A DNA stretch of 64,000 nucleotides from NCBI GenBank assembly GCA_013115135.1, contig JABANP010000183.1, forward strand, positions 29,265 through 93,264, written 5' to 3'. A program made the position numbers and the translations under genes. The stretch comes from Perkinsus olseni (lineage: Eukaryota > Perkinsozoa > Perkinsida > Perkinsidae). The notes under the pieces were generated by a model that saw only the letters and a list, made by a program, of their open reading frames with translations, was not told where the DNA came from and did not search any database. Of the stretch, positions 18,811-48,701 are shown in pieces. Positions within the stretch are counted from its first letter, which is position 1. Each line of letters starts with the position of its first letter.

Positions 18811-18814
18811 AAGG

Positions 18815-18834
18815 CATGAAATTCATGTCATGAA
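18815..18834. repeat. 6-1-6-1-6 triplet palindrome
   Basis: CATGAA-A-TTCATG-T-CATGAA: 6-mer, one base, its reverse complement, one base, 6-mer again. No empty paralog is available. Confidence 0.95.
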
Positions 18835-18938
18835 TCACACGCCGATGAGAGTGTGGGTCGCAGTCGTATATGTATACCCGATATACAGTATATCATACCG
18901 TGATAGACGATAGACGATCGGTGATACTGATAGACGTG

Positions 18939-18958
18939 ATAGGCGGCCTATCATAGGC
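18939..18958. repeat. 6-1-6-1-6 triplet palindrome
   Basis: ATAGGC-G-GCCTAT-C-ATAGGC, same architecture. Confidence 0.95.
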
Positions 18959-19254
18959 CTCGGCGTCGAACCTAGGTGACCTAGCTTTGATTCCGAGTTC
19001 AGTTAGGGTAGGTGGTGTGAGATCGCTTGTCGGGCATGATAACACCATAGGCGATCACTCATCACCGATAAATGGACGTCTCGCACTACATGAGTAAAAT
19101 CGGTCAAAAAACCGAAATCGTACGCCGGTCAAAAGAAGCCCTTGGCTTCTCGAGAGATCGCCGAAACAGTTGTCAGTCGTTGTTGTTCCTGATCAGCGGC
19201 TGATCATCAGCCATACTGCCAATGAGCAACTTGGCACTTGTAAGTAACAAATGT

Positions 19255-19479
19255 GGTGTAGCGTCTTGGGGCTCAAGCACGGTCCTTCCCAGTGACAACT
19301 CAGTATCCGTTGGAGAATCAGAGTCATTCATTAGGAAATGAGGATGATAATATCTGATGATGATGCCATACTAGTTAATAAGTCCGACCGAAATCAATAA
19401 TGAGTGACTCGCGAGTTCCCCGCAGCTAAGGGGCACGCGAGTACATAGCTGATCTATTGCGGGCGAGCAAGCTTCACCT
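19255..19479 (+). repeat. 225-bp dispersed repeat, inverted copy at 42112-42336
   Basis: The whole segment from GTGTAGCGTCTTGGGGCTC to GAGCAAGCTTCACCT is present in reverse orientation at 42112-42336 with roughly nine in ten bases identical. A shorter related piece occurs near 35262. No coding frame is conserved, so it may be a non-autonomous element or a long-element fragment. Confidence 0.9.
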
Positions 19480-20618
19480 AGCATGCCGCGCGCGCCATCG
19501 CGATCACCGCGATGAGAGCCGCTCTAGCACGTAGACCTTTCCAAAAGCCAGGAGCGTGGCGCTGTAGTGGGTTACAAGTTGAACCCGATGCTAGGCAAAA
19601 AAACAAAGACTATTCTACAGGTTTGTAGACCGAGTGATCAAGGCGAACGTCGTCCTTGATTCTCCGGGGAACGGGTGCTCAGTGACTTTGGGGTGGGAGA
19701 GATAGGGGAGGGAGGGCTTGATTCTTAGGAGCCTACTAGTCTTGCAGTCTTCGCATGCGTGCGAGGCGCTCTTCGCGCTCGCCCCGAGCGTGCCGGTCTC
19801 CCTGTAGTATGCCATTCGCGTGCCTCGAATGGATCATACAACTGACGGTCGCCCGATCAACGGTGAGCCGCTATCGTTGGGAGGATACGAGGTAGACCGA
19901 GTCATCAAGGCGAACGTCGTCCTTGGTTCTCCTAACGTGGGTGTTCGCCTTGCTCCTCCCATTGCAATGAACGTCTTTCATAGAGACAGCATTAGGAGAC
20001 AATAATGGATACAACAGGCGTGACACTTTGCGTCGATGCTAGGCTAGCATTGCTGGCAAATAGGATATCTGGGGCCCGAACTCTCAGCGCCGCAGATCAT
20101 GCGTAACTGAAGGAAGTAGAGCTTACAGCGCTCGTCTCTATTTCCCGCAGTCAACCATCAGCCGCATGTCAACTACAGTTGAAAGTACTATATGCTTCAT
20201 GCGCTATGCGAAGTTCGAAAGTGAGATATTCAGAATGCGGATACCATGTCCAGCTCATTACACTATCGACGTTTATCGTTAGAAAATCAGACCAATGATA
20301 ATGATGGTGGATGAGGACACTCTTTGATACTATTTCACCCTAGTACGGTGACCGTACTATTTGTACGTCCTGCCGAGAACGCAGCATCGCTGCGTTCGGC
20401 ACGATTCTGAAAGAAGGCCGCTATCTTGTTACTCGTTATGCGCCGATCATCTTGCGCATGCGTGTATAGCATATTCCCCAGGGAAATTTCCCTTCGAGAG
20501 AGTAGGCTTGGAAGGAAGGGTAGAGAGACTTCACACTCCTCCTCGCCTTGCGTTGACTATGAGCAACAACGGAGAAGCAACGTACCCTCATCATGATCAG
20601 CTATTGGTGTTGTCCCAG
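19480..20618. other. spacer with a direct repeat; no firm gene
   Basis: The phrase GTAGACCGAGTxATCAAGGC and the 16 bases after it occur twice (about 19625-19667 and 19891-19933). Both can be read as DRVIKANVVL, so a duplicated exon of an unknown gene is possible. The part at 20440-20590 resembles 54955-55090, and the region upstream of the GH18-like gene is shared with the other copies. Confidence 0.4.
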
Positions 20619-21802
20619 ATGGTCATCAGCCCGCGCTTCTTCGCTGTGATCCTATTCGTGTTGGTCCCCCGTAATGATGGGGCGATGGTGTCCTTCAGTA
20701 GTCAAGAGTGGGTACTACCGACCGATCATTTCTGCAATATGTTCTCCCGGGGTGTCAACAAGTTCTACCTAGAGGGCGCCACGTTACTGTTCAATGGGTC
20801 TATCTACTCGGAGGTGAAAAACGTCACGATGGTCAATGAAATCGCTGATTGTGCCGGAAAGTACGGTACGAGCATGTCTCTATTACTGTGGACAGATGAA
20901 TCCCCCTTCGATGAATGCTCCCCTCGTAAATTCAACTTCGACACCTTCAAACATCAGCTTCAGTCTTACATCACCCAGTATGATGTAGAGGAGGTGACCT
21001 TTTGGATTTGGGCTGGCCCGGTTGTGAACTGTGAACAATTCTTCTGGCAAATCTCGACCAAGATCAGTAGGATTATCCGTCGTTCGTTGAAGACCAGGTC
21101 CGGAAAACCGGTCAGAGCGTCACTTGGGTGAGTACCGTACTCAGAGTACGGGCGCTTCTCAGAAGCCGTCATTTTCCGGGACGGGCAGTCGACCGAAAGC
21201 TCAGAGTGGTTCTGGCGTGATGAGGCCTCGTGTGTTTTCAGATTTTCAGTGGAGCCCTCAGATTCGCCGTTGTGGAAGTATATAAAGAGCGCCAGCGTTG
21301 GGAAATACTTCGACACCATCACGGTTCACTTCGGATATCCAGGTCTCCACGACAGGCGCACCATTGATGATGGCTTCGCGCGCGATGTCGTTCATCGTCT
21401 CCTTACCTACGGAGTGCCGGCACATCAAATAGAGCTCTCAGTAAGTTGCGGGAGTCGGAGCGTTGCAGCAAGCGTGGCTCGCAAGTAGTGAGATGCCCAA
21501 TAACCTGTCGTGTATCGTTTCAGACCGACACCGATGGGTTCAACGAGCTGACCTTCATTCCTATGGCTTACTTTGAACTGATTAGGGAGGGCGCGTCTCG
21601 ATTATCGAATGGCTCCTTCCACGGCTATATATACCAGTCTCAGAAACAAGTTTATGAAAAGACTAACATCATTAAGGAAGAAGGCCTCCGTGGACTCTCG
21701 CTACGAGCCATTATTTGGGACACGCCCGTCGACAGCTGCTCTTCTTTGCTTTATGCTGCTCTGTACTATTTACCAGATTCTTTGAGCTTCTCACCGAAGT
21801 AG
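20619..21802 (+). CDS. secreted GH18-like (chitinase-like) protein, copy 1
   Basis: Three exons (20619-21127, 21242-21440, 21524-21802) give 328 aa. The ATG at 20619 directly follows TGTCCCAG, a plausible trans- or cis-splice acceptor, and starts a signal peptide (MVISPRFFAVILFVLVPRND). The protein looks like a glycoside hydrolase family 18 barrel: strand 4 is YDVEEVTFWIWAG, later strands give FDTITVHFGYPG and IELS, and the end GLRGLSLRAIIWDT followed by SLLYAALYY matches the family's closing GLxGxxxWxxxxD...LL. The catalytic DxxDxDxE motif is not preserved, so it may bind rather than cut glycans. It has three extra residues (near GPVVN) relative to copies 2 and 3, and intron 1 begins with a triplet palindrome. 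Confidence 0.75.
21130..21149. repeat. 6-1-6-1-6 triplet palindrome in intron 1
   Basis: GAGTAC-C-GTACTC-A-GAGTAC. It makes a 14-bp length excess over the same intron of copies 2 and 3, starting two bases into the intron. Confidence 0.95.
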
Positions 21803-22479
21803 AATAATCGAGGGTTCTACGGTGGAGAATACTAGACGGAGTCTTCTTTCGTTAGACTTCTGTTTCACCTTTTCAAGCCCTACGGGCCATCAGCTTCCCT
21901 CTCGCAGTGGCACTTAATTGTCGGTGTGAGTGGGCTGCGTTTAGTTCAAAAAAATTACCCTCTTATATGCTTCTTACTTTATGCGTTACGGAATACAGAA
22001 TCTGTGTCGAGGTTGCTGTCAGCAACTTGCTGATAGTAGCTGCTGCAGTTGCTGGTGCTAATCGGGGATCAGTATTGTATTTCTAGGAGGATCGCTTCAA
22101 CCGCTCAAGTTGAGCGTATCTTTTATGTGGCCCGGGGAGATGGCCGATTCTATTCTGTTTTGCTCGGGCCGAGCGATGGCCGTTTCAATAGTCGTTCAGT
22201 TAATCGGGCCGTAGATGACTCGCTGTAGGTCGAATCATAGTGATTTATTTAGTAATTCTTACTACTTCTTGACCACTTTCTTCATATTTCAATGCCACGA
22301 GTTCAGTTTTGGGTGGCGTAGGCTTATCACTATACCATTCTCTGCCGAAGTAAATCCGAAAGGGTTTCATCGACGGTCGAACCAGGACGACAAGGAGCAG
22401 AATCTGTCACAAATTATTTGTTCGCTAGCATCATTTGTTCTGTCTCGTTTTTCCACTGAAAGTGCGAGACAAAAATGCC
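21803..22479. other. 3' flank of GH18-like copy 1
   Basis: Diverged from the flanks of copies 2 and 3 but alignable in blocks (the CCTACGGGCCATCAG and GGGCCGTAGA phrases). No other gene is seen. Confidence 0.5.
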
Positions 22480-22856
22480 AAAGTTTTGACATACTAGGAA
22501 ATTTTGGCGCCGTGAGCGGTTATGGAGAGCTCACGACGAATAGGGAAAGGAAGAATACGTCTTCCGCTTGACAGAAGCTCTTTGTCACTGAAGGGCATGA
22601 GATCGCCGAGATCAGCCATACTGCTGATGGGCAACTTGTAAGTCACAAATGTCGGTTACAGGTCATGCCCGATGCTGGGCGAACGAAGACTATTCTACAG
22701 TGTTTGGCTTGTTTCCGCTGCGGCATAGTCGGTCGCGTCACAATGCTGGCCAACTTGCACGCACGAGCTTGAGCGGCTCCTTCGCCCGCCAGCGACAGCG
22801 ACTGAATGATATTATCACATTTCTCGCGCAAGCCAGCAAGAGACAGTGATGGACGG

Positions 22857-22876
22857 TTAGCAATGCTAACTTAGCA
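22857..22876. repeat. 6-1-6-1-6 triplet palindrome
   Basis: TTAGCA-A-TGCTAA-C-TTAGCA. Unit B at about 31865 has a single TTAGCA. Confidence 0.97.
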
Positions 22877-22935
22877 TACAGGACATAGAGTTCACAATTT
22901 GGCAATAACGCCATTCACTGCCCTAAAAAATGGCG

Positions 22936-22955
22936 TTCACACTGTGAACTTCACA
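22936..22955. repeat. 6-1-6-1-6 triplet palindrome
   Basis: TTCACA-C-TGTGAA-C-TTCACA. Unit B near 31930 lacks it (16-bp difference including a small separate change). Confidence 0.95.
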
Positions 22956-23438
22956 GAACGATCACCTGGAGGCAGCGATGGTGGCAGCAGGCGTGACGTC
23001 GTGCGGCGATGCTAGGCTAGCATCACTAGCAAATGGCACAACTGCGGCCGAACCTTCAGCGTCCCAGATCATGCGCAACTGCAGGAAATAGAGCCTAGAA
23101 GGGTCGCCTCCGTTTCCCGCAGTCAGCCGTTGACACTCCGTCAACTACAGTTGGGAGTGGTATATGCTTCATGCGTTATGTAAAGTTCGAGTGTGAGACA
23201 TTCAGAATGTGGGTATCATGTTCTGCTCATCATCGACGCGTGTTGCAAGTGAATCACAACTGTAACGGTATCATTATGATATTTTGCGGTACAAACTCGA
23301 TTCACCATAAACGTCAATGATCAATTGAAGTTGAGTGTATCAGGACGCTCCGTGATACTATGTCGACCGTACCATTTGTACGCCCTGCCTAGATCGCAGC
23401 AACGCTGCGTTCGTCACGATGCTGATAGGAGGTCCCTA

Positions 23439-23458
23439 TCCTTAATAAGGATTCCTTA
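23439..23458. repeat. 6-1-6-1-6 triplet palindrome
   Basis: TCCTTA-A-TAAGGA-T-TCCTTA. It is absent from unit B near 32430, and the identical 20-mer occurs at 43603. Confidence 0.97.
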
Positions 23459-23486
23459 TCATGATCAGCTGTTGGTGTTGTCCCAG

Positions 23487-24603
23487 ATGGTCATCAGCCC
23501 GCGCTTCGTCGCTGCTATCCTCTTCGTGTTGGTCCCCCGTAATGAAGGGGCGATGGTGTCCTTCAGTAGTCAAGAGTGGGTACTACCGGTCGATGATATC
23601 TGCAATATGTTCTCCCGGGGTGTCAACAAGTTCTACCTAGAGGGCGCCACATTACTGTTCAATGGGTCTATCTACTCGGAGGTGAAAGATGTCACGAAGG
23701 TCAATGAAATCGCTGATTGTGCCAGAAAGTACGGTACGAGCATGTCTCTATTACTGTGGACAGACGACTACCCCTTCGATGAATGCTCTCCTGGTAAATT
23801 AAACTTCACCGCCTTCGAACGTGAGCTTCAGTCTTATGTCACCCAGTATAACGTGGACGAGGTGACTTTTTGGATTTGGGCTGGGAAATGTGAACAATTC
23901 TCGTGGAAGACTTCGTGGAAAGTCAGTAGGATTATCCGTCGTTCGTTGAAGACCAGGTCCGGAAAACCGGTCGAAGCGTCACTTGGGTGAGTGCGGGCTT
24001 CTCTCAGAAGCTTTCATTTCCCGGCCCGGAAATTCCGGGCCCGGCAGCCGACTGAAGCCTCGCGTGTTTTCAGTTTCTCCGCGGAGCCTTTAGATTCGCC
24101 GTTGTGGAAGTACATAAGGAGGGCCAGCGTTGGGAGATACTTCGACACCATCTCGGTTCAATTCGGGTATCCTGGTCTCTTCGACAGACGCACCATCGAT
24201 GTTGCCTTCGCACGCGACGTCGTTCACCGTCTCCTTACCTACGGAGTGCCGGCGAAACAAATAGAGCTTTCAGTAAGTTACGGAACTCTCCTCGTGGCGT
24301 TATAGCCGGCATGGCTCGCCCGTAGTGAGGAACGCATTTGCCCGCCAGGTGGACACCAGTGGGTTTCAAGAGTGGACCTTACAGCCTATGGCTTACTCCG
24401 CACTGATTGAGGAGGGCGCATCTCGATTCTCGAATGGCTTCTTTGAGGACTATATATACCAGTCTCAAAAACAAGTTTATGAAAAGACTAACATCATTAA
24501 AGAAAAAGGGCTGCGTGGATTCTCGCTACGTTCCATTATTTGGGACACGCCCGTCGACAGCTGCTCTTCTTTGCTTTATGCTGCTTTATACTATAGAGGA
24601 TAG
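23487..24603 (+). CDS. secreted GH18-like protein, copy 2
   Basis: Exons 23487-23986, 24074-24272 and 24349-24603 encode 317 aa with the same phases as copy 1. Signal peptide MVISPRFVAAILFVLVPRNE; strand 4 reads YNVDEVTFWIWAG; the C-terminus ends SLLYAALYYRG. Exon 1 and exon 3 are nearly identical to copy 3. Intron 1 holds a palindromic expansion around AAATT near 24030 that copy 3 lacks. The protein is probably secreted. Family name rests on fold-level similarity and not on catalytic residues. Confidence 0.78.
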
Positions 24604-25499
24604 AGTCTTTAGTATAGAGTTTAAACTACTAGCTAGATTCTTCGAGATTCTGACTAGAAACCGCCGGCTCTCCAGAGAATAATTTTTAGTGAAGACTAAT
24701 TTTTGTTGGATTTTTGACTCCCCTTCTCAAGCCCTACGGGCCATCAGTTTCCCTCTCGCAACGGTGCTTAGTCTGCCGGTGTGAGTGGACCGGTTGAAGG
24801 AAGCTCGTTTTCAGCACATACGTTACGGGATAGAGAATCTGTGTCGAACTTGCTGGTGGTTGCTGCTGTTGTTGTCGTATCTGCTTATGAGTATTATCTC
24901 TTTAGTTGGGCCGCTTGAGCGCATTTTTTGTGGCCGGGGAAGATGGCCGATGGTGGTATGTCCTTTTTTCAGCACTCACTGTGCATCGATACTTCGCTGG
25001 GGCCCAGCATGACCGTTTGACTAGTCATTCGGTAAATGGGCCGTAGAAGACCCGCTGTAGGTCGAATTATAGTGGTAAATTTCAGTGTACTTTTACTACT
25101 ACTCTCACTACTTTCTTCATACCATTAATGCCATGAGTTCAGTTACGGGTGGCGTAGCCTCATCGCTACACCAATTCCCTGCTGAGGTGAATTCCGGAGG
25201 GTTTTCGAAGGGGGTTAATCGAAGGTGAAACCAAGGCGGCCGGGCGTTCGCTTGCGGAATCCATTCAAAGAGTGGCATTCTTAGAATGCGCTCTGAGAAT
25301 GTGATCCGTTGAGCACGTCTCGGAAGCGACTCAGGAAAACATTCCGGGGTATTCGAGAATGAAATCTTGTGAACATGATTTGAGGATGTATTCTAAGAAT
25401 CGATTTTGAGATTACTTTCTGGAAATTCCAGACTGGAATAGCCCGCCGACCAGTGCGTCGGGTTTCCCATCCCAGAAAGGAACGGTTAAGTGATCACCC

Positions 25500-25590
25500 A
25501 ACTCCCATAGAAGAGGGCTTGTTCAAGAAGCATGTGTCCCCAACTTTCATAGAAGAAGGCTTCTTCAAGAAGGATGTGTCTCTAACTGCG
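25500..25590 (+). repeat. two 42-bp tandem units encoding IEEGFFKK
   Basis: Two near-identical units read as IEEGLFKKHVSPTF and IEEGFFKKDVSLT. Unit B has the same pair at 34855-34930. The frame is open across both but no full gene can be built. Confidence 0.6.
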
Positions 25591-25840: not shown

Positions 25841-26189
25841 AAGGTACGTACCGCAAAGGTTACTGTGGCAACGCTTAGTTGCCTGGATGACGACGTCAAA
25901 CCAGTCACGTCATCATGACGTGACTGTTTTGAGGTTTGTCGTAGGTTTGGGAGGTAGCGTGGGATCATAATATGATCATCATATTCGTAACGCACATTTC
26001 GAGCGTTCTTCTGGCAACACTGTGGACTCCAGTGTTACCAGACCCCAGTCTGGAGTCCGGAGTTCACACTGCGCCTATGTGGCCGGTTGACGAGCAAAGG
26101 ATGATAAGATGTCTTGGCAGTACAATGTGGGTAAGTACAAATTGGAGTTCTCCTGTCACTTGTAATTTTCCCTTATTATGGGACCCTTA

Positions 26190-27068
26190 AGGAAAAGCAA
26201 GTTCAGTGTATCATTAGATTGAGCTGTTACAGTGGCGGAAGAGTGGCTGATGTTTTGGATACTCGTTTGGCCGATGTAAGAAGAGTTCGAGTTGGAGAAG
26301 TCGGAAAACCTGAACAGTTGCAAGCATTTGAAAATTCTCGATGGTGTACGTTACCCTCTAGGTTTCTTCTGTAGGGCAAGGTCAAGGTTTACCCAACGAT
26401 GAGTTTTATACTGAATCTACCAATAGAACCGATTCTTCACCACGAGATCAAGTTCAGGAACAGAAAAGCAAACTATAATCATATTGTAGCCTACAATTTG
26501 TAGGTAACCTTAACATCTTGAGATTACTCTCTTTCCAGAGAGAAATATGTCTCTGGCATTGCTGCCGTGCCATTGGAAACTTGGCTCGATATTCGAGCAA
26601 ATACATCGTGGGGGAGGTCAGCAGCTGTTCATCAAGTGGCACCGGATAGTAAAAGGAGAAGAGTTCAAGAAAACGAGACATCTACTGCTTTGTGTATTGG
26701 GGGAAGGTCTGAGCATGTGTACATTCCCGAACGTATTTCGCATCGAAGAGAGCTTGCTTGGCGCGGTGTGAAACAGGTTATAGGCCGCATTGATGAGAGA
26801 AAGATAAATGGCGGACTCTGGGAACCTGAACCGGGGCTCACAGATGAGGGTATGTCTGTCTCGAGTAACTGGGAATCGGTGGCTAGTATTTTGATCTCTG
26901 TTTGTTTTAATGGGAAAGATGGTCGGTGTTTCTTTTGTGATTCATATGGACCCTCAGTCTCAGGACGTCAGGCTGTGGTAGTTTTGGGTCAAGTCTACAG
27001 TGTGAATGAAGCTATCATTGGTGCCACCAATTTGATGGGCTATTGTTGCATGAACGAGGATACGTGAG
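26190..27068 (+). pseudogene. exons of an unidentified gene, truncated by the tandem duplication
   Basis: Three codon-coherent pieces lie in order. The first, about 26188-26350, includes KEKQVQCIIRLSCYSGGRVAD. The second, about 26540-26849 after a TCTTTCCAG acceptor, includes YVSGIAAVPLETWLDIRANT and RELAWRGVKQVIGRID. The third, about 26890-27061, includes CFNGKDGRCFFCDSYGPS and ends at GAGGATAC before a GTGAGT donor. No family is recognised. The third exon's last 16 bases are also the start of the duplicated unit at 28925, where the upstream exons are missing. A weak resemblance to a piece near 49340-49440 (CFNGKECILSSRLL) suggests a repeated, possibly transposon-borne, family. Confidence 0.4.
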
Positions 27069-27731
27069 TTCTACTTGTAGGACTTGTGGTCGATTGCTTA
27101 CTTTGTCGGTGGAATATGGATTACCTCTACAGCATGTTATATTATTCCTTTCTTTAGTGCATACTTCGCACGATTTCCGAAAGGTGTACTGTACCAAATC
27201 GGTTGAAGCTTCACCTGATGGCTATAATCTTCCTCTTCAAGAAGTGTGCATGTCATATATGTTTTACCAAGGTAACCGTGATCGAGTTCGCAGACATATT
27301 CGCGAGAAAGTGCGGAAACAGAGGTTCTTTATTTGTATTTCGTAGCATTACTATATTCCATATATTCTCTTCTCAAGCGTTGTCGGTTGAATTGTCAATT
27401 CAATTCAGAATTGATTAGATTCTAACTAATTGTAGTGTTTTAGAGGTTTATGTAAAGTTCTTCTGAGGTATGTCATTGTTTGTATGTAAAGGTTCGACTT
27501 GGGTTTGGCGTAAAGACTGTATTTCGCCTCTCGAAATGCAACCCGAACCCGAACTCTTCGAGCTGAAAGCGTCCGAGATGGCCATTGGTGAGTAGCCGGA
27601 CTCCCAAGGTGTGTACGCAGGCGTCCTGTTTCTGTTTCTTATGATCCTCTGTCTTGTAGCAGACGTCTGAGACGGCTTAGTATATTGTCGTTCTCCAAGT
27701 CGTGCACCTCAGTAACGAGCTGGGGTGACGA

Positions 27732-27923
27732 TCACGTAGCACCGCTTGCTTGGATCCGTATATATAATGGGGGTCTCCAGGGCCGGGCCCTGAGGGCCCA
27801 TTCGGCAGCAATCGCCGCATCGGCCAGCGCGATGTGACAGTCCTCGGTTTCGCCTTGCCAAGCGTAATCTTCTATGCTTTTGAGGAGTTCGCGGACGAGT
27901 AGATGGAAAGCGCAGCTTTCCAC
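27732..27923 (-). pseudogene. gene fragment in tandem unit 1
   Basis: The 63-codon minus-strand frame begins at ATG 27923 and contains IEDYAWQGETEDCHIALADA followed by AIAAEWALR. The HxALxDA-like motif recalls 3'-5' exonuclease C-termini, but nothing else supports that. Unit 2 has a 2-bp deletion in the same place, so it is broken there. Confidence 0.35.
27779..27798. repeat. 6-1-6-1-6 triplet palindrome
   Basis: AGGGCC-G-GGCCCT-G-AGGGCC. Unit 2 near 29655 has a single AGGGCC, an exact 14-bp difference. Confidence 0.97.
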
Positions 27924-28481
27924 AATCCTACCTGATTAAATGTCGCAATATTTCACGTGAAAGCAGTTACTGGTTGCCAGTGAATACGGCACCAAAAATA
28001 TTGTTTTTCGCACTACTGGTTCCAAATTAGAACTTGAGGGAGATGAGTGAGGTATTATAACTTCTAATGCCTCACTTTCCTCCCCTGGGAACTTGGATTG
28101 TATATCTCTGGAAAAAATGTAATACATTTAATGTATCGGATAGTCAATCTAGTTGCTATTCATGTGAATGGAATATTTCGTCGTTCTCATATTTTTGCGA
28201 ATTCAACTTGCGAGTTTCGAAGGAATAGAACGGGAAGTATTTCTGCTATGCCGATGCTACTGAATAAGCATACTACTGCTCACTTACAGCGAGCCACCAT
28301 GCAATCGGATTGGAGCAATCCTTCCTCTTAGAGACTGCTACGGGGTTCTATCACTCTCTTTTCGTGCTCACCTTCTTTCAGACTCGAATTAACGCCTTCC
28401 ACGGCACAGCTATGGCGAGGCACCCACCTCGGAACGGAGTGGGCGCTTGTATACTGTACTGGCGGTCTAGTGGAGCCACGT

Positions 28482-28721: not shown

Positions 28722-29372
28722 TAGAGCCTAGCTCGCCGATTGAAAGACCCGTAGTCTCAGCATAGGTCACGCTTCATCCCTGTCGGACTCAACTCGCCGA
28801 ATACCTGAATTCATTTGGTTATGATGGCAGCGGCGCTGCCGCAGCGCTGTAGTCAGCAGTAGTGGTAATTCTTGCAATGATTCTCGCGCTCATCACTATT
28901 GGATTATTACTCTACGATTATCATTGTTGCATGAACGAGGATACGTGAGTTCTACTTGTAGGACTTGTGGTCGATTGCTTACTTTGTCGGTGGAATATGG
29001 ATTACCTCTACAGCATGTTATATTATTATTCCTTTCTTTAGTGCATACTTCGCACGATTCCGAAAGGTGTACCAAATCGGTTGAAGCTTCACCTGATGGC
29101 TATAATCTTCCTCTTCAAGAAGTGTGCATGTCATATATGTTTTACCAAGGTAACCGTGATCGAGTTCGCAGACATATTCGCGAGAAAGTGCGGAAATAGA
29201 GGTTCTTTATTTGTATTTCGTAGCATTACTATATTCCATATATTCTCTTTTCAAGCGTTGTCGGTTGAATTGATTAGATTTTAACTAATTGTAGTGTTTT
29301 AGAGGTTTATGTAAAGTTCTTCTGAAGTTACTTGTCATTGTTTGTATGTAAAGGTTCGACTTGGGTTTGGCG

Positions 29373-29392
29373 TAAAGAGTCTTTACTAAAGA
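29373..29392. repeat. 6-1-6-1-6 triplet palindrome
   Basis: TAAAGA-G-TCTTTA-C-TAAAGA. Unit 1 near 27511 has a single TAAAGA, an exact 14-bp difference. Confidence 0.98.
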
Positions 29393-29749
29393 CTGTATTT
29401 GGCCTCTCGAAATACAACCCGAACCCGAACTCTTCGAGCTGAAAGCGTCCGAGATGGCCATTGGTGAGTAGCCGGACTCCCAAGGTGTGTACGCAGGCGT
29501 CCTGTTTCTGTTTCTTATGATCCTCTGTCTTGTAGCAGACGTCTGAGACGGCTTAGTATATTGTCGTTCTCCAAGTCGTGCACCTCAGTAACAAGCTGGG
29601 ATGACGATCACGTAGCACCGCTTGCTTGGATCCGTATATATAATGGGGGTCTCCAGGGCCCATTCGGCAGCCATCGCCGCATCGGCTAGCGCGATGTGAC
29701 AGTCCTCGGTTTCGCCTTGCCAAGTAATCTTCTATGCTTTTGAGGAGTT

Positions 29750-29769
29750 CGCGGAGTCCGCGACGCGGA
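29750..29769. repeat. 6-1-6-1-6 triplet palindrome
   Basis: CGCGGA-G-TCCGCG-A-CGCGGA. Unit 1 near 27890 has a single CGCGGA, an exact 14-bp difference. Confidence 0.98.
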
Positions 29770-30351
29770 CGAGTAGATCGAAAGCAAAAACCACAATCCT
29801 ACCTGATCAAATGTCGCAATATTTCACGTGAGAGCAGTTACTGGCTGCCAGTGAATACGTCACCAAAAATATTGTTTTTCGCACTACTGGTTCCAAACTA
29901 GAACTTGAGGGAGATGAGTGAGGGATTATAACTTCTAATACCTCACTTTTCTCCCCTGGAAACTTGTATTGTATATCTCTGGAAAAAATGTAATACATAT
30001 AATGTATCGGATAGTCAATTTAGTTGCTATTCATGTGAATGGAATATTTCGTCGTTCTCATATTTTTGCGAATTCAACTTGCGAGTTTCGAAGGAATAGA
30101 ACGGGAAGTATTTCTGCTATGCCGATGCTACTGAATAAGCATAATACTGCTCACTTACAGCGAGCCACCATGCAATCGGATTGCAGCAATCCTTCCTCTT
30201 AGAGACTGCTACGGGTTCTATCACTCTCTTTTCGTGCTCACCTTCTTTCAGACTCGAATTAACGCCTTCCACGGCACAGCTATGGCGAGGCACCCACCTC
30301 GGAACGGAGTGGGCGCTTGTATACTGTGCTGGCGGTCTAGTGGAGCCACGT

Positions 30352-30591: not shown

Positions 30592-30797
30592 TAGAGCCTA
30601 GCTCGCCGATTGAGAGACCCGTAGTCTCAGCATAGGTCACGCTTCATCCCTGTCGGACTCAACTCGCCGAATACCTGAATTCATTTGGTTATGATGGCAG
30701 CGGCGCTGCCGCAGCGCTGTAGTCAGCAGTAGTGGTAATTCTTGCAATGATTCTCGCGCTCATCACTATTGGATTATTACTCTACGATTATCATTAT

Positions 30798-31454: not shown

Positions 31455-31649
31455 AAAGTTCCAAGAAAGCGCCAAAGTTTTGACATACTAGGAAATTTTG
31501 GCGCCATGAGCGGTTGTGGGGAGCTCACGACGAATATGGAAAGGAAGAGAACGTTTTCCGGTTGACAGAAGCTCTTTGTCACTGAAGGGCGTGAGATCAC
31601 CGAGATCAGCAATACTGCTGATGGTCAACTTGCAAGTCACAAATGTCGG

Positions 31650-31669
31650 TTACAGCCTGTAACTTACAG
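31650..31669. repeat. 6-1-6-1-6 triplet palindrome
   Basis: TTACAG-C-CTGTAA-C-TTACAG. Unit A near 22662 has one TTACAG. Confidence 0.98.
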
Positions 31670-32362
31670 GTTATGCCCGATGCTGGGCGAAAGAAGACTA
31701 TTCTCCAGAGTTTGGCCTGTTTCCGCTACGGCATAGTCGGTCGCGTCACAATGCTGGCCAACTTGCACGCACGAGCTTGTGCAGTTCCTTCGCCCGCCAA
31801 CCACAGCGACTGAACGATTTCATCACATTTCTCGAGCCAGCCAGCAAGAGACAGTGATGGACGGTTAGCATACAGGACATAGAGTTTTCAATTTGGCAAT
31901 CACACCATTGACTGCCCTAAAAAATGGCGTTCAGAAAGATCACCCGGAGGCAGCGATGGTGGCAGCAGGCGTGACGTCGTGCGGCGATGCTAGGCTAGCA
32001 TCACTAGCGAATGGCACAACTCCGGCCGAAACTTCAGCGTCCCAGATCATGCGTTACTGCAGGAAATAGAGCCTAGAACGGCCGCCTCCGTTTCCCGCAG
32101 TCAGCCGTTGACACTCCGTCAACTACAGTTGGGAGTGGTATATGCTTCATGCGTTATGTTAAGTTCGAGTGTGAGATATTCGGAATGTGGGTATCGCGTT
32201 CAGTTCATCATCGGCGTGTGTTGCAAGTGAATCACAACTGTAACGGTATCATTATGATATTTTGCGGTGCAAACTCGATTCACCATCAACGTCAATGATC
32301 AATTGAAGTTGATGGTGTATCAGGACGCTCCGTGATACTATGTCACCGTACAATTTGTACGC

Positions 32363-32382
32363 CCTGCCAGGCAGGGCCTGCC
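32363..32382. repeat. 6-1-6-1-6 triplet palindrome
   Basis: CCTGCC-A-GGCAGG-G-CCTGCC. Unit A near 23386 has one CCTGCC. Confidence 0.98.
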
Positions 32383-35168: not shown

Positions 35169-35940
35169 GTAAGTTAAACCTCTCCGCGGTGTCTCATGGC
35201 TCAAAGTCGAGTCTTCCAAGTGCTAACTCAAGGGCGTCATTGACTACGAAGTTAACCATTAGGAAATGAGAGTGATGATAACTACGAATGGGATATCGTC
35301 AAATAAGTGCTGTTGGCCTTCATTCCCCTTGCCCCTCTGACTTCCCTTTGACTGAACACTAGACGCAGTTGACATAGTGTAACTATCACAGTTAGCAGCA
35401 ACAGAGAGAGATAGATAGAAATAACATCAGGAATGCCGTCGGCTGCAAGCTGCAGCCCTCAGCTATAGTCGATCAAGCAGCGCAAGATACGGCGAATGAG
35501 TGGTCATGGAGACTACAGCGAGGTATCGCTTGCGTAAGTCACACTCATAGTGATCGGGGACTCCCCGGCGGGGAGTGATTCCGCGGCCGCGGAACGCGTG
35601 TGCTTAGCTTAATACGCTTTGCTCATGCTCTCCAGCGGAGCGGTCGGCAGCGTTTTCATGAAAAGTAGATTAGATTTCAATAAGGAGCCCTTCCCAGATT
35701 GTGGTGCGCAGCAGCGCTACGGCAGCACCAATCGCATCCCACTGCGGCCGACCGAAACCCTGAAGTAGCGGGTGAGGCGTTTGGTTTGAGCGAATTGGTT
35801 AGGCACTGGCAAGTATTCAACATTCAGTTATACATATTTCGTCAGACTATCGTCCACTGTATGACAAACCCGGTATAAGGCGGTTTGAGTTATCCCGAGA
35901 TCATATTGGCAGCTATCCTCCAATCAATCCTATTATAGCA
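35169..35940. other. no gene seen
   Basis: A partial copy of the 19255-19479 repeat lies near 35262-35310. Otherwise only promoter space of the next gene. Confidence 0.4.
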
Positions 35941-37252
35941 ATGAACGTCATCGGGCGGAGCCCATTACTCATGCTTTTCGCCTTTCTACTTTCACTCGAG
36001 GCCGTGAGTAGTAGTGGTGGAGACCAGGAGAATGTAAGTAGCCTTTTTCTTGGGCATGTCAATTGAGTTCGACGATCGTTTACTCATCCAAGTCTGCTTT
36101 CAGGCGAGAGAGCACGTTGACTTCGGGGACATGGATCCTTCTACGGCCTATGTAACTTGCTGAGTCAAGCTTCCCGCTATTTGTATACCCCGGTAACCAG
36201 ACCGTCGAATCTTGTACTGTATTGCAGATTGACATCAAGCATGAACAAGATGAGAAGGAGGGCAGTCTCTGTTATCTGGAATGGGTTTACACGGATTATG
36301 AAAATTCAAGACACAGCCGGCTGGAACTCTGGATTCATCTGGACACAGAAGAGAAGGCGTTTACTCACATTAAGGCAGACTCGACGGAAGCGCTCTACGA
36401 GCGTTATTTGAGAATCAAGTAAGATGCCTCACAGTGTCATTGTGGGGTTGAACCTCTTCGAGATGAGTTCAAATTTCTCCTCTCCGAGGGGGCCTTATCG
36501 TCATCTGTCTCGAATACTGCATTCGAGACAGATGACGATAAGGAATTGTAAGGACATTATACTATACATTAGAATATACGTTGACGATAAGGAATTCTCG
36601 CGAAACTGTATTCGGAATACAGTGTATTCTTACTTCCAGTGAGGATACTTTCGAAGCGCAGAGTACTTTTGGGAGTGATTTTTCCCCTCAGAGACAACAA
36701 AGACGAGCTGTCCGTGAGTCACGGACCGTGACGGCTCGCGGATGCAGTCATGGGCTGGCTAATCGAAAGTACAAGAAAATCGCTGTGGGACCGAGAGGAG
36801 CTGATGACAGACTCCAAGCTGAGGAGACGCTCTTGGAGGGAGGCCCATTCTCACCTTTGGGTCATCTACAGGAAGGCGATATAGATCGTCTCATGAAGAC
36901 TATCGACTGGGACTGGGACAGTGACACATACAAATGCGAGAAAATATGCCACTTCCTAGCCTTTAACGCTCCTGAGGGTTACGGCAAGAAAAACCTCGAT
37001 TGGCTGTTCGATGCCGTCAATGAGAAGACCGATCGGGCGGAGAAGACAATTGTCATTGCTAATTCTCTAATTGGCGAGAAGAAGCTGTCGAATAGCCGCG
37101 TTGGAGCGGTCGGCGTAGAGGAGACATCGGAGGTGCAAGCGGGAAGCCTTGAGTGCCAAGAAAACCGTCAAAGGGACAAGTTACTGCTGTTGGTGCGAAG
37201 AAACCGTCGAAGGGCCTTCTCCACAGTATCGGGAAATCTTTCAGAAAGCTAA
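35941..37252 (+). CDS. secreted 'LDTE' family protein, gene 1
   Basis: Four exons with consistent phases (35941-36033, 36104-36151, 36228-36418, 36640-37252) give 314 aa. Exon 1 encodes a signal peptide (MNVIGRSPLLMLFAFLLSLE). Exon 3 carries the family core SLCYLEWxYxD...LWIHLDTEEKAF. Exon 4 has PFSPLGHL, IDWDWD, CEKICHFLAFNAPEGY and a helix ending LDWLFDAVNEK. The family is shared with 45002-45891 and 47033-47987 and is not recognised; two domains joined by a hinge are likely. This copy has longer, basic insertions before PFSPLGHL and at the C-terminus. The intron before exon 4 contains a perfect 23-bp palindrome and a 7-1-7-1-7 triplet. Confidence 0.75.
36493..36543. repeat. perfect 23-bp palindrome in an intron
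   Basis: Arms 36493-36515 and 36521-36543 are exact reverse complements around a 5-base loop. The arm end GACGATAAGGAATT is repeated directly at about 36584-36597. Confidence 0.97.
36607..36629. repeat. 7-1-7-1-7 triplet palindrome
   Basis: TGTATTC, G, GAATACA, G, TGTATTC: the same plan as the 20-bp structures with a 7-mer. It lies just before the exon 4 acceptor. Confidence 0.95.
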
Positions 37253-38775
37253 CAAAGAGGGGACAAAAGAAGTGATTCTCTCGCTCCGCCAGTCTGTGCT
37301 GATGTGAGTTGTATGTTCATCAAGATTCATGATTGAGATGTCTTTAATAGCAACCGACAGTTGCGTAACTAGTGTCACTGGTGTAGTGATTAGATGAGTG
37401 CAAGGAGCCTGACAGTGTCAATATCAGCAGAGTTTCAAGGGATTCGACCGCAAGCCCCGAGGTTCTGACAGTTAAAGCGTGAGGGCCGTTTGGCGTTGCA
37501 TATATGAAGCAAACCGTTTCCTGCCGAGCTTTTCCTATCGTGAGCATTTTTCAGTCAATGCGGCTCTTTGGATCCCTTTGCTCCTACCGGAGAGGCGCCT
37601 TGAGCTGCCTAAGAGACGACCGTCAGGCGTATTTGCTCAACTGAGCCATCCTATCACGAGTTGTTCATATCGTGGGAGGAGCCTTGCTGGCTTGATGATG
37701 GTACCACTCGTTCTGTCACAATTTTGATAGCAGTTATAACCTGCGAATAACTGTTTCCATGACACTGTCACGATGGCAATGATCGACCACGGCTTCTCGA
37801 CGAAAGTGAAACTCGATAAGTAGAGGAACAGTAGAGGAGAGTCTCTTCTACTGTGCACCGAGCTCCTTAGGAGGCTAACCAATTGAGCTATATTTTTTCT
37901 GCTCATCCATTTTATGGCACTCGAGTCAACCAGCGTCCGGGACGCTGGTAGAGCTTCGGTCGGGACGCAGCTTCCCGACCTCAACACCAGCCTCTCCAAT
38001 CAGGAGATCACGTCCGAGGCACTCCCTCGTGATTCACGCGACGTTCAACCGCCCACGATGGAGACAGATGACATGTCCCCGTCGTTCCTTCGACGCTAGT
38101 CAGTTAGACCTACCGGGTCAGTGACTTGGTGGCCATTCAACGAATCGTCTGCGTGAGTCGGCTGGCGCCCGAAAGCGGTTCAGTTAGACGAACATCTGCT
38201 GCCCGTCGTCCTCTGATTCCCTCTCAAAAACCGGAGATCCTCGTGAGGTAACTTATGGTTGCCGTACGGCGACTAGCCGCGAGTCAATACTGGTGACATA
38301 TTCAGGCGATACAGGGCCCGAATTTCAGGCGTGGTGCGCATTCGCGCTATCCTCACTGGCAGTTACTGCCATCACGAGGCTTGCAGCTGATCTAAGCAGG
38401 CATTCGCATCAAGCTCTGTCTCGGAGACCGGAGTCGCCGTGGCAGGGGACCGTCACAGGACGCGTCACACACGCACGCACGCGGTCTCATTCCGGTCACC
38501 GCTTATCGTGTCCGATAGGGGACGAGGCACATCTGCAGATGCTATATTCTGAATATAATATTCATTCCAAGGCTCAAGCGGAAGACAATTTGCTCTGAGA
38601 GCGAAAAATCTTAGGCCGTAGAGTGTTTACGCGTGCTTTGCGCGAATTATGTAAGTCTTTGTGTACCATATCCAGGAGACTTCTCGAGGCAGTCCCTTCA
38701 AGGGAGGGTAAAGGCAAACCGTGACAAGCTTGGTACCTTAACCCTCGTCTCAATCAGTCACAGTTGTTATCCCAC
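37253..38775. other. intergenic, no firm gene
   Basis: Short frames exist on both strands (for example 37637-37999 minus, 38293-38598 plus) without starts or splice sites that support them. A tRNA A-box-like half (TATAGCTCAATTGGTTAG, minus strand, about 37872-37892) lacks a B-box. Confidence 0.45.
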
Positions 38776-40333: not shown

Positions 40334-40734
40334 CAACATTACCAAATTGTCTATTGATGTCTATTGATTGTCTATTGAATTGTCATTGTGTCACAATCTT
40401 TTCTGGAATAGTCGCTTTGAGGGGGCGCTTGTGCATCCCGGTGATGGCCGATGTTAGTCTGTCTCCTTCAGCACTCAATATCCATCCGTAGTCTCCTCGG
40501 GCCGAGCGGTGGCCGTCTTCTAGTCAACTCATATGGGTCACGATGAACCCGATTATATTGGTTTACCGCACTCCTAGATTCCCACTCATCAAGCACGCCC
40601 TTTCTCGAGTTCAATGTCAATGAGTTCAGTCCCGGGCGCCACCCTGCGAGCTCGAATCGGCCCTCCGCTCCCTGGATGTGAAGATAGGATACGAATCGTA
40701 TGATACGAGAGACTGATGAGACGAGCTTCGAGAA

Positions 40735-40950: not shown

Positions 40951-41650
40951 ATGTCATATGTCTGCAATCATAACGGCGTTCTGATTGGCTATGGAAGTGG
41001 TCCTCATCGGAAGTTGGCCTCATGGACCATGAGTCATGGTGTTAGCCATGCTACCGTTGCCCGTTTGTGGGACGAAGACCTGTTGGATGCCCTCATTGCC
41101 GGGCGAGTACTGTTCGTTTCCGGTCTGCTGTCTGGTCCAAAAAGGTTTGGAGAGGATGATCTCTATCTGCCGGCCCCATCGGCTGTGCTTATATGGGTCC
41201 AGGGTGCAGGGGTGGCTGCACATTTGGTAACTTATCATACTCGTGGGCTTCGACCTTACAGCCCCATCGGCAACTCTGCCGATATATTTGTATGCTGTCC
41301 TCGACATGCCGAGGAAGGCCTTCCCAGGTTGACGCGGCAGGCCGCGGCTAGGCCTTTTTCGAGGCCAGGCCTGATCCTTTCGTGGTTCATGATGATGAGT
41401 GGGTTGTTACTTCGTCGGAAGAGGTAGCCAAGGCTCATCGTTCAGAGCAAGTTCGCGGGCACCTTTAAACCTACCGCTTATACCTTTGGTGGCGTTACGA
41501 ATCGTAACTTACGATCGACTCTCTCAATGAGTTCTACCGTAGACTCTCTGAGTCTGCAGAGGACGCCACTAAGGCCTTGTCGTCTATTGGTCAGCACTAT
41601 CGTATGAAGACTGCTGATGGACTTAGGCCTTTGCGTGACGGGCGCTGACG
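40951..41650 (+). pseudogene. decayed ORF of a possible mobile element
   Basis: An ATG-led frame runs 40951-41427 (158 aa) with no family match. In another frame 41375-41455 reads DDEWVVTSSEEVAKAHRSEQ, and 41505-41647 reads IDSLNEFYRRLSESAEDATK to a stop after LRPLRDGR. These are coherent coding pieces broken by frame changes, as expected for an old element protein. Confidence 0.35.
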
Positions 41651-43217: not shown

Positions 43218-43602
43218 GGTTTCTCGAGAATAAGGGAATCGGCCGAAAATCTTATTCTCTCCCATTCTCGTTCTCGTGAGATCTCGCGGGATTTCACGAG
43301 ATCTTGCGGATTCTCACAATAACGGCGAGGGATTTCTGTGCCCTGCATTCGCTTCGCTGGAGCATTCGCGATGCGCCGCCAATTTCGCAGCAGGACGAAA
43401 ACAAGTAGTGACACCTTAGGAGACTAACCGAGAATTGACGTCCTCCATTCGAGGAGAATACTCTGCTCGGGATATTGGAGTCAGTACTCTGATCTATCGG
43501 CGAGCAAGGAGCTGCCGAGGAACTATCTGGCGGAATACTGTGCAATAGAGTGGAAGTCGGGACGGAACAGCGAATCTAATCCAGAGAGTATGCGAGGTAT
43601 GA

Positions 43603-43622
43603 TCCTTAATAAGGATTCCTTA
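43603..43622. repeat. 6-1-6-1-6 triplet palindrome
   Basis: TCCTTA-A-TAAGGA-T-TCCTTA, the same 20-mer as 23439-23458, here in unrelated flanks. A larger palindrome (TATGATCCTTA at 43599 with its inverse at 43654) encloses it. Confidence 0.95.
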
Positions 43623-43664
43623 CAAACCTGACTGTATCATACAGTCAGATTAGTAAGGATCATA

Positions 43665-45001
43665 TAGTCTGTATGGCATACACTACATGAGCGTGGTTCT
43701 GAAAACAAGCCAGACTAAGGGCCTCTAAGAGGCCTTCTCAATGGGAAATTCCCGTTGGGAATGGTCCTCCCACCGAGAAGCCCCCGGTGAGCGCCGTCAA
43801 TACGTGGAGCTCCCGCGCAGAACAGATAGTTAAACTATCTAAGAGGCCCTAAATTTCAGGTTGAGGACGGGGAAACGGCGGCCAACTCGGAATTCTGTAC
43901 GGCCATGGCCGCAGTACTTCAATGGAATCACTGCGAGAGCTATAAAGCTGTAGCAACCGGTACAATCATGAGATGCGATTGTTGTGATCATTATGATGAG
44001 GGCGAACGCGAGCTCGACCCAAGTTGGGTCACCCAACCCTCCGCTCCCTGGATGTGGTGGTAAGATACTCGAGGCTGCTGGCTTAACCCACCAAGTCGAA
44101 CCCAGACTGGGTATGGAGTCGGGCAGTCGTCTACTGGAATAATGAATGTGTTAGAAGTTTGTCCGATTGTTCGGGTAGCGGTTCTTTATGCTATCTGATA
44201 GCAGCTGTCATCGGGATCAGAATAGGACCGTAGGTGATGTGCCATCCCCGCTATAATAAAGCCAAGCTGATGTGAAACACCGAGCATGGAACGCAATAGC
44301 AAAGTTGTGATTTATGAGGAGCTACCAAGGAGCGACACCAATGTCAGTCTGTCGATCATATGAGAAGTCGAAATTCATAATAATAATTATCAGAATTATC
44401 AGATAATTCTACACGCACACACAGTCCTAGGGGGCTCTCTCAAGGCGACATCTTGAGTGCTGTTCCCAAGGCACCAGAGTGTGTTGAGTCGACGATGGAT
44501 TCGGCAATGCAGGAATAATTGTAAGCCGCCACAGCACCGTTCACACTCCCAAGCTCTGCATCATGGGAATTTCCTGTTAGCGTCTTGGTGGCGGCTCATA
44601 AGTGGAACCGTCGATTAAAGAGGCGCGCGGAGGCTGCCCGCACTAATGGCACTTTCCACTCGATCGGGTTTGTTCCGAACGCACCCCTCATTCAGAAGGG
44701 GTATTTTGACGCTCGCGTCGGACCCGCTATCCGTCGGTTTGCGTATATACCGGTAAACCACGGGCCCTGACGATCAACATGAAGCGTGGTCACCATTTCG
44801 CAACTTGCTTCCCATTTCTTGCCGTCCCAAGCAACGGAGTTGGACTGAGGATCAGTTATCGATTGACTACCCACAGGCTCATGCTGTCAGGATGTTGAAT
44901 CCTCAGCGATGACTCATAGCGCAGTGCGTGATGGAAAATTTGATGTCAGGCCCACAGGGGGTTGAACTGGTAGTCACTGTCTTTCCAGCCCTACTGTAAT
45001 A
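43665..45001. other. intergenic; one short coding-like frame
   Basis: 44585-44770 plus reads WNRRLKRRAEAARTNGTFHS and ends at a stop after VNHGP, but has no ATG. It may be the tail of an element protein. Several imperfect palindromes lie at 43715-43860. Confidence 0.4.
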
Positions 45002-45891
45002 ATGACTTTCATCTGGCGTAAACCAATGCTCATGCTTCTCATCTTGCCTTCCCTAGAGGCCATTCGTAGTAGTAGACAAGATGACATAGACTGGAAAGTA
45101 AGTAGCCTGCCTTGGACTCCGCGATTCGCGGACCGCGAACCACCGCGGAATCCGCGGTCGTTCATGCGTATGGCCGTGCTTGCTGTCAAGTCTGCTTCTC
45201 CGTGTCAGTACGACGTCAGCCTGGACAGTCTCCCAGGAGAAGAAGGTGAGTTTTGCAAACTCTATTGGTGGTACATGGCTCACGACGGGCGCATGAGAAG
45301 GGAGCTTCGTTTCTGGACCCGTCTAGACACGGAGCAGAAGGCTTTCACTTATATGAAGGCCTATGCTGATACCTGGGACCCCATTGAGTCCGAGCATATA
45401 AGCCGCGACGGCACCACTCGAAAAATTCCAGGCCATACAGCATGGACCCAAATGTTGTCTATAAAGTAAGTGCTCAGGTGGTCAGTTTATTTCCTGATTT
45501 GGTGGAATATATTCTTCTTAGGGACGACAAAGATAAGCTGATCGTGGGAGCCTACGCACATCACCCTGCAGAGGAAGATAATGGCAGAGTTCCAACTATA
45601 AGTGCGGGGGCGGTGAGGACTCCTCAGAGACGCCGCGTTGAAGCAATGCTCTCAAAAAGCGGTCCCTACTCACCCTTGGGCCATTTGAAGGGAGAAGCTC
45701 TGGATTCACTTATTAAGCGTATCGATTGGGAAAGGGATGGTGGTAACCGCACATGTCAGAGGATATATGACTTCATAAGCGCTAACGGGCCTGATGGTTA
45801 CAACAGCGGAGGCCTAAACAGGCTGACCGAATTTGTCAGGGACAAGGCGCGCGTAGTCGCGGAGCTCCTTGAGAAAAAGCAGGGACAGTGA
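45002..45891 (+). CDS. secreted 'LDTE' family protein, gene 2
   Basis: Three exons (45002-45097, 45209-45465, 45522-45891) give 240 aa. The signal peptide is MTFIWRKPMLMLLILPSLEA. The core reads EFCKLYWWYMAHD and RLDTEQKAFTYMKAYADTWD. The last exon has KLIVGAYAHHPAEEDNG, GPYSPLGHLKGEALD, IDWERD and CQRIYDFISANGPDGY. The small second exon present in genes 1 and 3 is missing; the phases still fit because that exon is a multiple of three. Intron 1 contains a triplet palindrome at 45119. Confidence 0.75.
45119..45138. repeat. 6-1-6-1-6 triplet palindrome in intron 1
   Basis: CCGCGA-T-TCGCGG-A-CCGCGA. It is followed at once by another palindrome, ACCGCGGAATCCGCGGT. Confidence 0.95.
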
Positions 45892-47987: not shown

Positions 47988-48182
47988 TGTAATAGGATTG
48001 ATGAGACGATAACTGCCGATATAATCTCGGGATGGCTCGGACCGTCTGGCGCCAGGTTTCCCACATAGCAGATGATGAATCATCATTGATGATTTGACAA
48101 CATGAGCGTGACCGAACGTCGAATAGCTCCCCATGCCTAACTCTACGCCAGGACTCCGGTCCGCCGCATTGGGAGGTTTATC

Positions 48183-48384
48183 TTGTATGTCTGCGAATCG
48201 CGAGGCTCCAGATTCGAACCGCAGGTACGAATTGTGTGGACCTCTGTGAGGCGTGCTCCGTCTAGAGTACGCTTAAGCAAGCGGAATATTGAAAGCGAGC
48301 GGAAAGAACTATTCGTGCGTCGTTACTCGCGCGTCTTCGTAATCGGCGGGAAAATGATAGACTCGAGCAGTCTACACTGTAGAC
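48183..48384 (+). repeat. dispersed repeat, inverted copy at 34958-35168
   Basis: Reads SKRNIESERKELFVRRYSR in the plus frame, related to the frame on the minus strand at 35 kb. No complete gene. Confidence 0.7.
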
Positions 48385-48531
48385 TCCACAGGCTACCTCA
48401 GCTGGTTGTAGCAACCAACTTGGTTGGCAATATCGTCTGAAAAATGGCAGTATAACTCTCTGTTATACTGTCAATGACAGTCTTCCATTCTTGCAGACAA
48501 GTTCGACAAGTTCTTGTCGAGCTTGTCGGAC

Positions 48532-48551
48532 TTCACAATGTGAAGTTCACA
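48532..48551. repeat. 6-1-6-1-6 triplet palindrome
   Basis: TTCACA-A-TGTGAA-G-TTCACA. Confidence 0.95.
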
Positions 48552-48681
48552 TTGACGCTCTTGCCAAGAGCCTCTTGGGGTAACATGTGTCAACTTGTAT
48601 GTTCAGTGTCAAACTTGCATGTTCGCTTGTTGTCGACAAGTTGTCAAACTTGCACGGCAAATGGTGTAGTTATCAGACTAG

Positions 48682-48701
48682 CTGGGACTCCCAGCCTGGG
48701 T
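48682..48701. repeat. 6-1-6-1-6 triplet palindrome, one mismatch
   Basis: CTGGGA-C-TCCCAG-C-CTGGGT; the third unit differs in its last base. Confidence 0.8.

Follow-up and report, generated by a model that had tools for sequence, protein, structure and literature searches.

A stretch of 64,000 nucleotides from the genome of Perkinsus olseni (contig JABANP010000183.1 of assembly GCA_013115135.1, positions 29,265 to 93,264; hereafter the window) contains numerous short triplet palindromes, which very probably are the repaired donor sites of excised DNA transposons of the hAT superfamily. The unit is 22 bp long and has the form T[1-7] + revcomp(T) + T[2-8], where T is an 8-bp word and revcomp(T) its reverse complement; it is called a scar in the following. 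This reading has its direct basis in the 22-bp rule, in paralogous sites that are empty, in a bias of the target words, and in hAT elements of the same genome with 8-bp duplications and matching targets. Most of the recognisable scars were most likely healed in the same way.

Already in a first-pass annotation of this DNA, a motif of six bases, one base, the reverse complement of the six, one base and the six again (6-1-6-1-6) had been listed at 15 perfect sites, together with a one-mismatch case (48682) and a 7-1-7-1-7 case (36607). A direct search of the whole window for perfect and one-mismatch instances returned all 15 sites as perfect, a single mismatch in the arms at 48682 and the 7-1-7-1-7 form at 36607. 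The list was nevertheless incomplete, with 45 perfect sites in the window and a further 26 with one mismatch. Order-1 (dinucleotide-matched) shuffling of the window, repeated five times, yielded no perfect site and at most one with a mismatch, and the motif is, as claimed, far above chance. The words are nearly all different and only the grammar is common to them, in agreement with the view that they do not form one repeat family. Furthermore, the peak at arm 6 and spacer 1 is sharp. With spacers 1,1 the window has a single arm-7 site, and at arm 6 every other spacer setting up to 7 is found 0-3 times. Twenty 10-kb stretches of the same genome, picked by contig number beforehand and all used (hereafter the 200-kb sample), hold 31 sites at arm 6 with spacers 1,1, as against 0-1 in each other arm-6 cell (spacers 0-4).

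However, the 20 bp first described are not the complete unit. Each spacer is complementary to an outer flanking base, spacer 1 to the one 3' of the third arm and spacer 2 to the one 5' of the first arm. Both spacers follow this rule at 39 of the 45 perfect sites, one spacer at five and neither at one, where about three sites with both would be expected by chance; among the one-mismatch sites, 18 of 26 follow it at both. The spacers are fixed by the outer flanking bases and therefore the unit comprises 22 bp. A scan with target lengths 4-12 and several offsets found 39 sites in the window and 28 in the 200-kb sample at target length 8 and offset 1, and none in either at lengths 7 and 9 with offsets 0-2. 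With up to two mismatches over 22 bp the window contains 85 scars (ten shuffles: none), distributed as a decay tail of 39, 23 and 23 at 0, 1 and 2 mismatches. The density of perfect scars is 0.61/kb in the window and 0.14/kb in the sample, hence the window is scar-rich. Extrapolation of the sample to 61.5 Mb would give about 8,600 perfect scars per genome, which is only a very rough value because the sample scars are clustered, with 9 of 28 in one stretch and none in 8 of the 20 stretches.

The first-pass annotation knew of no described process with this rule, but the grammar corresponds to the cutting geometry of hAT elements, with its 8-bp duplication and one-base offset, combined with the annealing of two opened hairpins. 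The non-transferred strand is the first to be cut by hAT transposases, which form hairpins on the flanking DNA (PMC6900584), and the hAT transposase Kat1 places its cut in most cases 1 nt from the end of the element (PMC4763223; here and below the literature is cited for individual passages). From this known chemistry and the exact fit of the predicted product, the following cutting, hairpin-opening and annealing steps are proposed. A hAT element would insert at an 8-bp target T, with a preference for a T in its second and an A in its seventh position, and the duplication would lead to T-element-T. Upon excision, the transposase would nick the non-transferred strand one base into the flank at each end, and the freed 3'OH would attack the opposite strand. 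Both flanks would thereby be capped by a hairpin with a one-base loop, the loop base being the complement of T8 on the left and the base T1 on the bottom strand on the right. The host would then cut each hairpin open 8 nt or more away from its apex, that is at the outer edge of T or beyond, so that T[1-7]+revcomp(T) would stand at the left 3' end and, written as the top strand, revcomp(T)+T[2-8] at the right end. Because both opened ends derive from one duplicated target, they would share 8 complementary bases. Annealing of this 8-nt revcomp(T) overlap, followed by fill-in and ligation, would result in T[1-7]+revcomp(T)+T[2-8], a net insertion of 14 bp which is visible as 6-1-6-1-6. The derivation of the 22-mer from T-element-T was verified as a string operation on 1,000 random targets.

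In the region 20361-39279 of the window, an uncharacterised gene family is present in four copies (its proteins have SSQEWVLP/SSQEWLLP motifs) along with two segmental duplications, which together represent a usable internal clock for the scars. Within the paralogous alignments there are 25 perfect or one-mismatch sites, 12 of which are absent from a paralogue and 12 shared, while one (20337) aligns ambiguously. The gap at the absent sites amounts to 14 bp in eight cases and to 13, 15, 16 and 20 bp in the remainder, and the empty paralogue allele has a single target copy, as expected of a hAT footprint. The perfect scars at 21129..21150 (T=TGAGTACG) and 22012..22033 (GTTGCTGA) are absent, with a 14-bp gap, from three and two paralogues, respectively. 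A single T with a 14-bp gap is found in the sister copy at the position of the perfect scars 22856..22877 (GTTAGCAT), 27778..27799 (CAGGGCCC), 29372..29393 (GTAAAGAC) and 29749..29770 (TCGCGGAC), in the closest sister copy at that of 32362..32383 (CCCTGCCT) and, with one base altered, at that of 31649..31670 (GTTACAGG). Moreover, the sister copy lacks the perfect scars 22935..22956 (GTTCACAG, 16-bp gap), 23438..23459 (ATCCTTAT, 20-bp gap) and 34114..34135 (TCGCTACA, 13-bp gap) and the one-mismatch scar 24018..24039 (TTTCCGGG, 15-bp gap).

Other scars are common to the duplicates and have acquired ordinary mutations later, for example the perfect scar 28115..28136 (AAATGTAT), which has one mismatch in the sister copy at 29986. 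Further pairs are the perfect scars 28826..28847 and 30696..30717, the latter a copy of the former with the same T (GGCAGCGC), and the perfect scar 30171..30192 (TGCAATCC) with its one-mismatch counterpart in the sister copy at 28300. The two closest paralogue pairs (95% and 98% identical over aligned bases) differ by 12 indels of at least 10 bp, and ten of these are scars. One more (27389) belongs to a variant scar at 27387..27414, a one-base-loop hairpin with part of a second one, which constitutes a 19-bp insertion relative to the sister copy and is read as an out-of-register anneal. The last, a 10-bp insertion at 34214-34223 (CTACATGAAA), is the only indel of this size between the close paralogues without a scar-like form. 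Five indels of 3-6 bp in the same pairs are not scars.

The motif had also been placed exclusively in intergenic or intronic DNA. A comparison of the 67 perfect 22-mers of window and sample with stop-to-stop frames, made without gene annotation, bears on this only in part. None lies in a frame of at least 300 amino acids (aa; 7.9 expected), five are within frames of 200 aa or more (12.0 expected) and nine within frames of 150 aa or more (20.4 expected). Such a depletion from long open frames is to be expected because 14-bp insertions shift the frame.

The target words have a preference of their own. In 73 distinct targets, taken from the window scars with up to two mismatches, T at position 2 and A at position 7 account for 61 of 146 positions instead of the 37.3 expected (P=1.4e-5), and this is the only strong enrichment among 16 base-position tests. 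The bias is shared with Hermes, for which 8-bp duplications and the target preference nTnnnnAn are described (PMC2803484, PMC6900584). The hAT dimerisation domain has 21 matches in the genome, a lower bound on the number of hAT copies. At two of eight such loci examined, identical 8-bp duplications (GTCCGGAG and GTCTGATG) adjoin inverted ends of the TAGAG...GGGCA type, which are alike in 12 of 12 and 9 of 12 bases, respectively. The 12-base end TAGAGATGGGCA occurs 35 times, compared with five occurrences of the reversed control. In addition, a target matrix was derived from 66 distinct perfect scar targets only (window and sample). On this matrix, 16 8-mers flanking hAT ends, the ends having been selected by eye from inner sequence, reach a mean of +0.84 against -0.61 for random 8-mers (P=2.5e-5). 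They also outscore the adjacent flank positions (P=4.4e-5), and the 14 8-mers that remain after removal of two non-independent flanks give P=1.8e-4. Nine flanks of chance end matches, which served as a control, score like random (mean -0.85). The hAT elements seen in the genome, or relatives of them, probably made these scars.

Two scars are located inside a hAT element (2563 and 2662 in locus L002), and the same two are present in a second locus (913 and 1012 in L063); hAT copies were therefore themselves targets of excised elements. In a third locus (L062, 155-176) a hAT end stands directly 3' of a decayed scar-like hairpin, as if it had landed in an old scar.

A hAT footprint of the classical plant type consists of two target copies with complemented inner bases and no middle. 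Window and sample were scanned for middles of all lengths from -1 to 30, with the outer arms and both complementary spacer bases required and the middle left free, a design that is blind to scars with lost flanking bases. Only middle length 6 is in excess, with 90 sites against 2-11 for every other length; the plant type, with middle length 0, is represented by three sites and remains within this background. The full 8-nt anneal is the only product in excess among those keeping both target copies. On the other side, non-triple one-base-loop hairpins with arms of at least 8 are in excess in the window (32, some of them decayed triplets, against 6 each at loops 0 and 2 and 1.2 in shuffles), and therefore other outcomes occur. 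The 200-kb sample has 14 one-base-loop hairpins against 1, 6, 9 and 9 at loops 0, 2, 4 and 6, as well as 23 and 17 at loops 3 and 5, where triplets were not removed. The 7-1-7-1-7 case (36605..36629), whose one-base-loop hairpin extends two bases beyond the 8-bp unit, can be read as another outcome with a hairpin longer by these two bases. Long perfect one-base-loop hairpins without a third arm are found at 43039-43071 and 50039-50067 (arms 16 and 14), and these are perhaps further results of hairpin repair.

The evidence is about evenly balanced as to whether Perkinsus heals transposon hairpin breaks near-deterministically, with the hairpins opened far from the apex and the 8-bp target duplication used as a splint. 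A loss of end joining was considered as the cause of the uniform scars. Domain matches in the genome exist for Ku (1), Mre11 (1), the SNM1/Pso2-type domain DRMBL (1) and A-family polymerases (9), and thus no absence can be claimed.

Several observations weigh against an origin of the scars from hAT excision. In experiments hAT footprints vary, with 28 kinds among 128 in Candida (PMC5873905), and a single dominant product is unusual. No pair of paralogues with a hAT element in one and a scar in the other was found in a search with joined or concatenated hAT flanks, which ran from hAT-occupied sites only, not genome-wide for occupied copies of scar sites, and in which 40 of 90 and 40 of 46 candidates were scored and, for one site, 4 of 25 matches read. 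None of ten paralogue stretches of five hAT-occupied sites carries a scar, and the step from element to scar is therefore one that we infer. The contig of the window has no hAT domain match, and the window itself contains neither a 12-base hAT end (up to one mismatch) nor an 8-bp duplication with inverted ends. The recognised hAT copies (at least 21) are few in comparison with the extrapolated thousands of scars. Six of the eight hAT loci first examined are without such an 8-bp duplication, the flanks of locus L001 are unlike, and eight elements with one known end have no second target copy within the stretches examined. The duplication GTCCGGAG, which belongs to the C209 element in locus L004, lies within a TCCGGAG tandem repeat and is hence weaker; the flanks of this locus have two partial relatives, which are uninformative, one of them with a 14-bp indel that is no scar. 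Finally, the rule scan shows small excesses at length 5 with offset 1 (six in the window; nine in the sample against two in the sample shuffle) and at length 7 with offset 3 (four in the window; seven in the sample against none in the shuffle).

Merlin, P and Zisupton elements likewise generate 8-bp duplications. No element was caught at a scar site, and a paper on Merlin names Perkinsus, as far as its listing indicates (PMC8101967). An origin from one of these superfamilies, or from a family now extinct here, is still improbable, as the one-base offset and the flank hairpin are features of hAT elements in the passages cited above and the target preference fits both Hermes and the hAT flanks in this genome. 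Short inverted copies could also come from template switching during replication or from snap-back synthesis, with no transposon involved; a double template switch would account for the form of the product, and hairpins with a one-base loop and arms up to 16 are indeed present. From such a process a spread of lengths would be expected, yet the 8-bp unit with its one-base offset stands out, and the targets show the nTnnnnAn preference and are predictive of hAT flanks, which renders this explanation very unlikely. That the palindromes are selected functional elements, such as protein sites, RNA hairpins or splicing signals, would suit their perfect shape and their depletion from long frames. However, the words are nearly all different, about half of the comparable scars are absent from paralogues, decayed copies form the tail of 39, 23 and 23 described above and some scars lie inside a hAT element; nothing indicates that the scars themselves are functional, and selection is an extremely unlikely cause. 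Palindromes are classic artefacts of assembly or library construction, but with many scars decayed and the three pairs described above passed on via segmental duplications with ordinary mutations, such an origin is hardly credible. As for hAT excision, the small number of recognised elements in relation to the scars suggests repeated hopping which left lasting, nearly neutral scars.

Hairpin footprints of hAT elements are already known, while their abundance and the near-single outcome in Perkinsus look new. Footprints of the hAT element Ac/Ds in Candida, yeast and plants consist of palindromic P-nucleotides centred on the complement of the element-adjacent base, ascribed to hairpin opening, with microhomology in most yeast and plant joins and palindrome arms of up to 20 nt in yeast (PMC5873905). 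The scars resemble them in the palindromic P-nucleotides from hairpin opening, but the products in Candida are diverse with P-insertions of up to 3 nt, whereas Perkinsus shows one product in excess and a genome-wide fossil record. Hermes and Kat1 have in common with the scars the flank hairpins, the cut mostly at 1 nt (Kat1) and the 8-bp duplications with nTnnnnAn (Hermes); the passages concerned, however, deal with the biochemistry and insertion of single elements and contain no genomic scar record (PMC4763223, PMC2803484, PMC6900584). TcBuster in human cells leaves small flank-complementary inserts, which are read as hairpin repair, but these comprise a few bases, some deletions of up to 50 bp occur, and the joining is attributed in that passage to non-homologous end joining (PMC3499496). 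In a related alveolate, introners, not scars, are described in the passages cited (PMC7789003). No published report of Perkinsus scars, nor of a genome-wide record of such footprints in one fixed form, was found among the papers listed from the CC-licensed (Creative Commons) literature of PubMed Central, judged by titles, abstract starts and passages. The coding joints of V(D)J recombination, a programmed process, are also formed from hairpin-capped flanks and contain P nucleotides; they are like the Perkinsus scars in these hairpin flanks and unlike them in the lack of a target duplication and in their variable joins.

Excision footprints are usually studied element by element, as mixed deletions and fillers. 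With a fixed and computable scar, a 22-letter rule counts past excisions, recovers their targets and dates the scars by decay and duplications, and other eukaryotes that carry hAT elements are open to the same scan. It should not be taken for granted that a short perfect palindrome in a genome of this kind has a function. If Perkinsus does heal these breaks near-deterministically, the genome would contain thousands of self-describing scars, each with the exact target of a vanished insertion, and thus a clock-like record of departures. The balance of repair would then differ from that of the yeast, plant and human systems. Provided that the scars are hAT footprints as proposed, they would also reveal, with no experiment needed, how far from the apex a myzozoan parasite opens such hairpins and by what rule it joins them.

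The site list of the window consists of the 45 sites with perfect arms and four others, is a subset of the 85 scars with up to two mismatches and gives the strand as '.' throughout. Besides those already named, perfect scars are located at 1230..1251 (T=CGCTGAAT), 17889..17910 (CCCTTCAT), 18791..18812 (ACACTGAA), 18938..18959 (GATAGGCC, first reported as 18939), 19191..19212 (GATCAGCC), 25418..25439 (TCTGGAAT), 25963..25984 (GATCATAT) and 26483..26504 (ATTGTAGG). The perfect scar 34236..34257 (CCATTCTT) overlaps another at 34243..34264 (AAGAATGC), and those following are 36711..36732 (TCCGTGAC), 38543..38564 (TATATTCA), 41019..41040 (CTCATGGT), 41494..41515 (GTTACGAT), 44016..44037 (GACCCAAC), 45118..45139 (TCCGCGAA), 48072..48093 (ATGATGAT), 48531..48552 (CTTCACAT), 48557..48578 (GCTCTTGG), 48694..48715 (GCCTGGGA), 49090..49111 (CTGGCCAC), 50422..50443 (CTGCAGAT), 50955..50976 (GATGAAAG) and 60495..60516 (TCAGACTC). 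The arms are perfect and one outer base or spacer is altered at 18814..18835 (first reported as 18815), 25552..25573, 35554..35575, 43602..43623 and 49587..49608, and both outer positions are altered at 40688..40709. The site first reported as 48682 corresponds to a scar with two mismatches over 22 bp at 48681..48702.

Apart from the scars, the window contains a transposon-like element at 8619-11326 with 129-bp terminal inverted repeats which are 100% complementary. It encloses a 742-aa frame (8898-11126) that has four database matches, all of them Perkinsus proteins, and no Pfam or PDB match above chance. As a source of the scars the element was rejected, having neither an 8-bp duplication nor a hAT match. 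A carrier is encoded at 3482-4420, with its best protein matches in Perkinsus olseni (95-97%), P. chesapeaki (88%) and P. marinus (75%), and a tandem repeat is present at 5430-5998 within a Thr/Pro-rich frame (PSCEPVKTTTT repeats). In the 200-kb sample, one stretch (L019, about 3248-6113) carries a large inverted repeat, not hAT-like, with several nested 12-base end pairs over about 2.9 kb.

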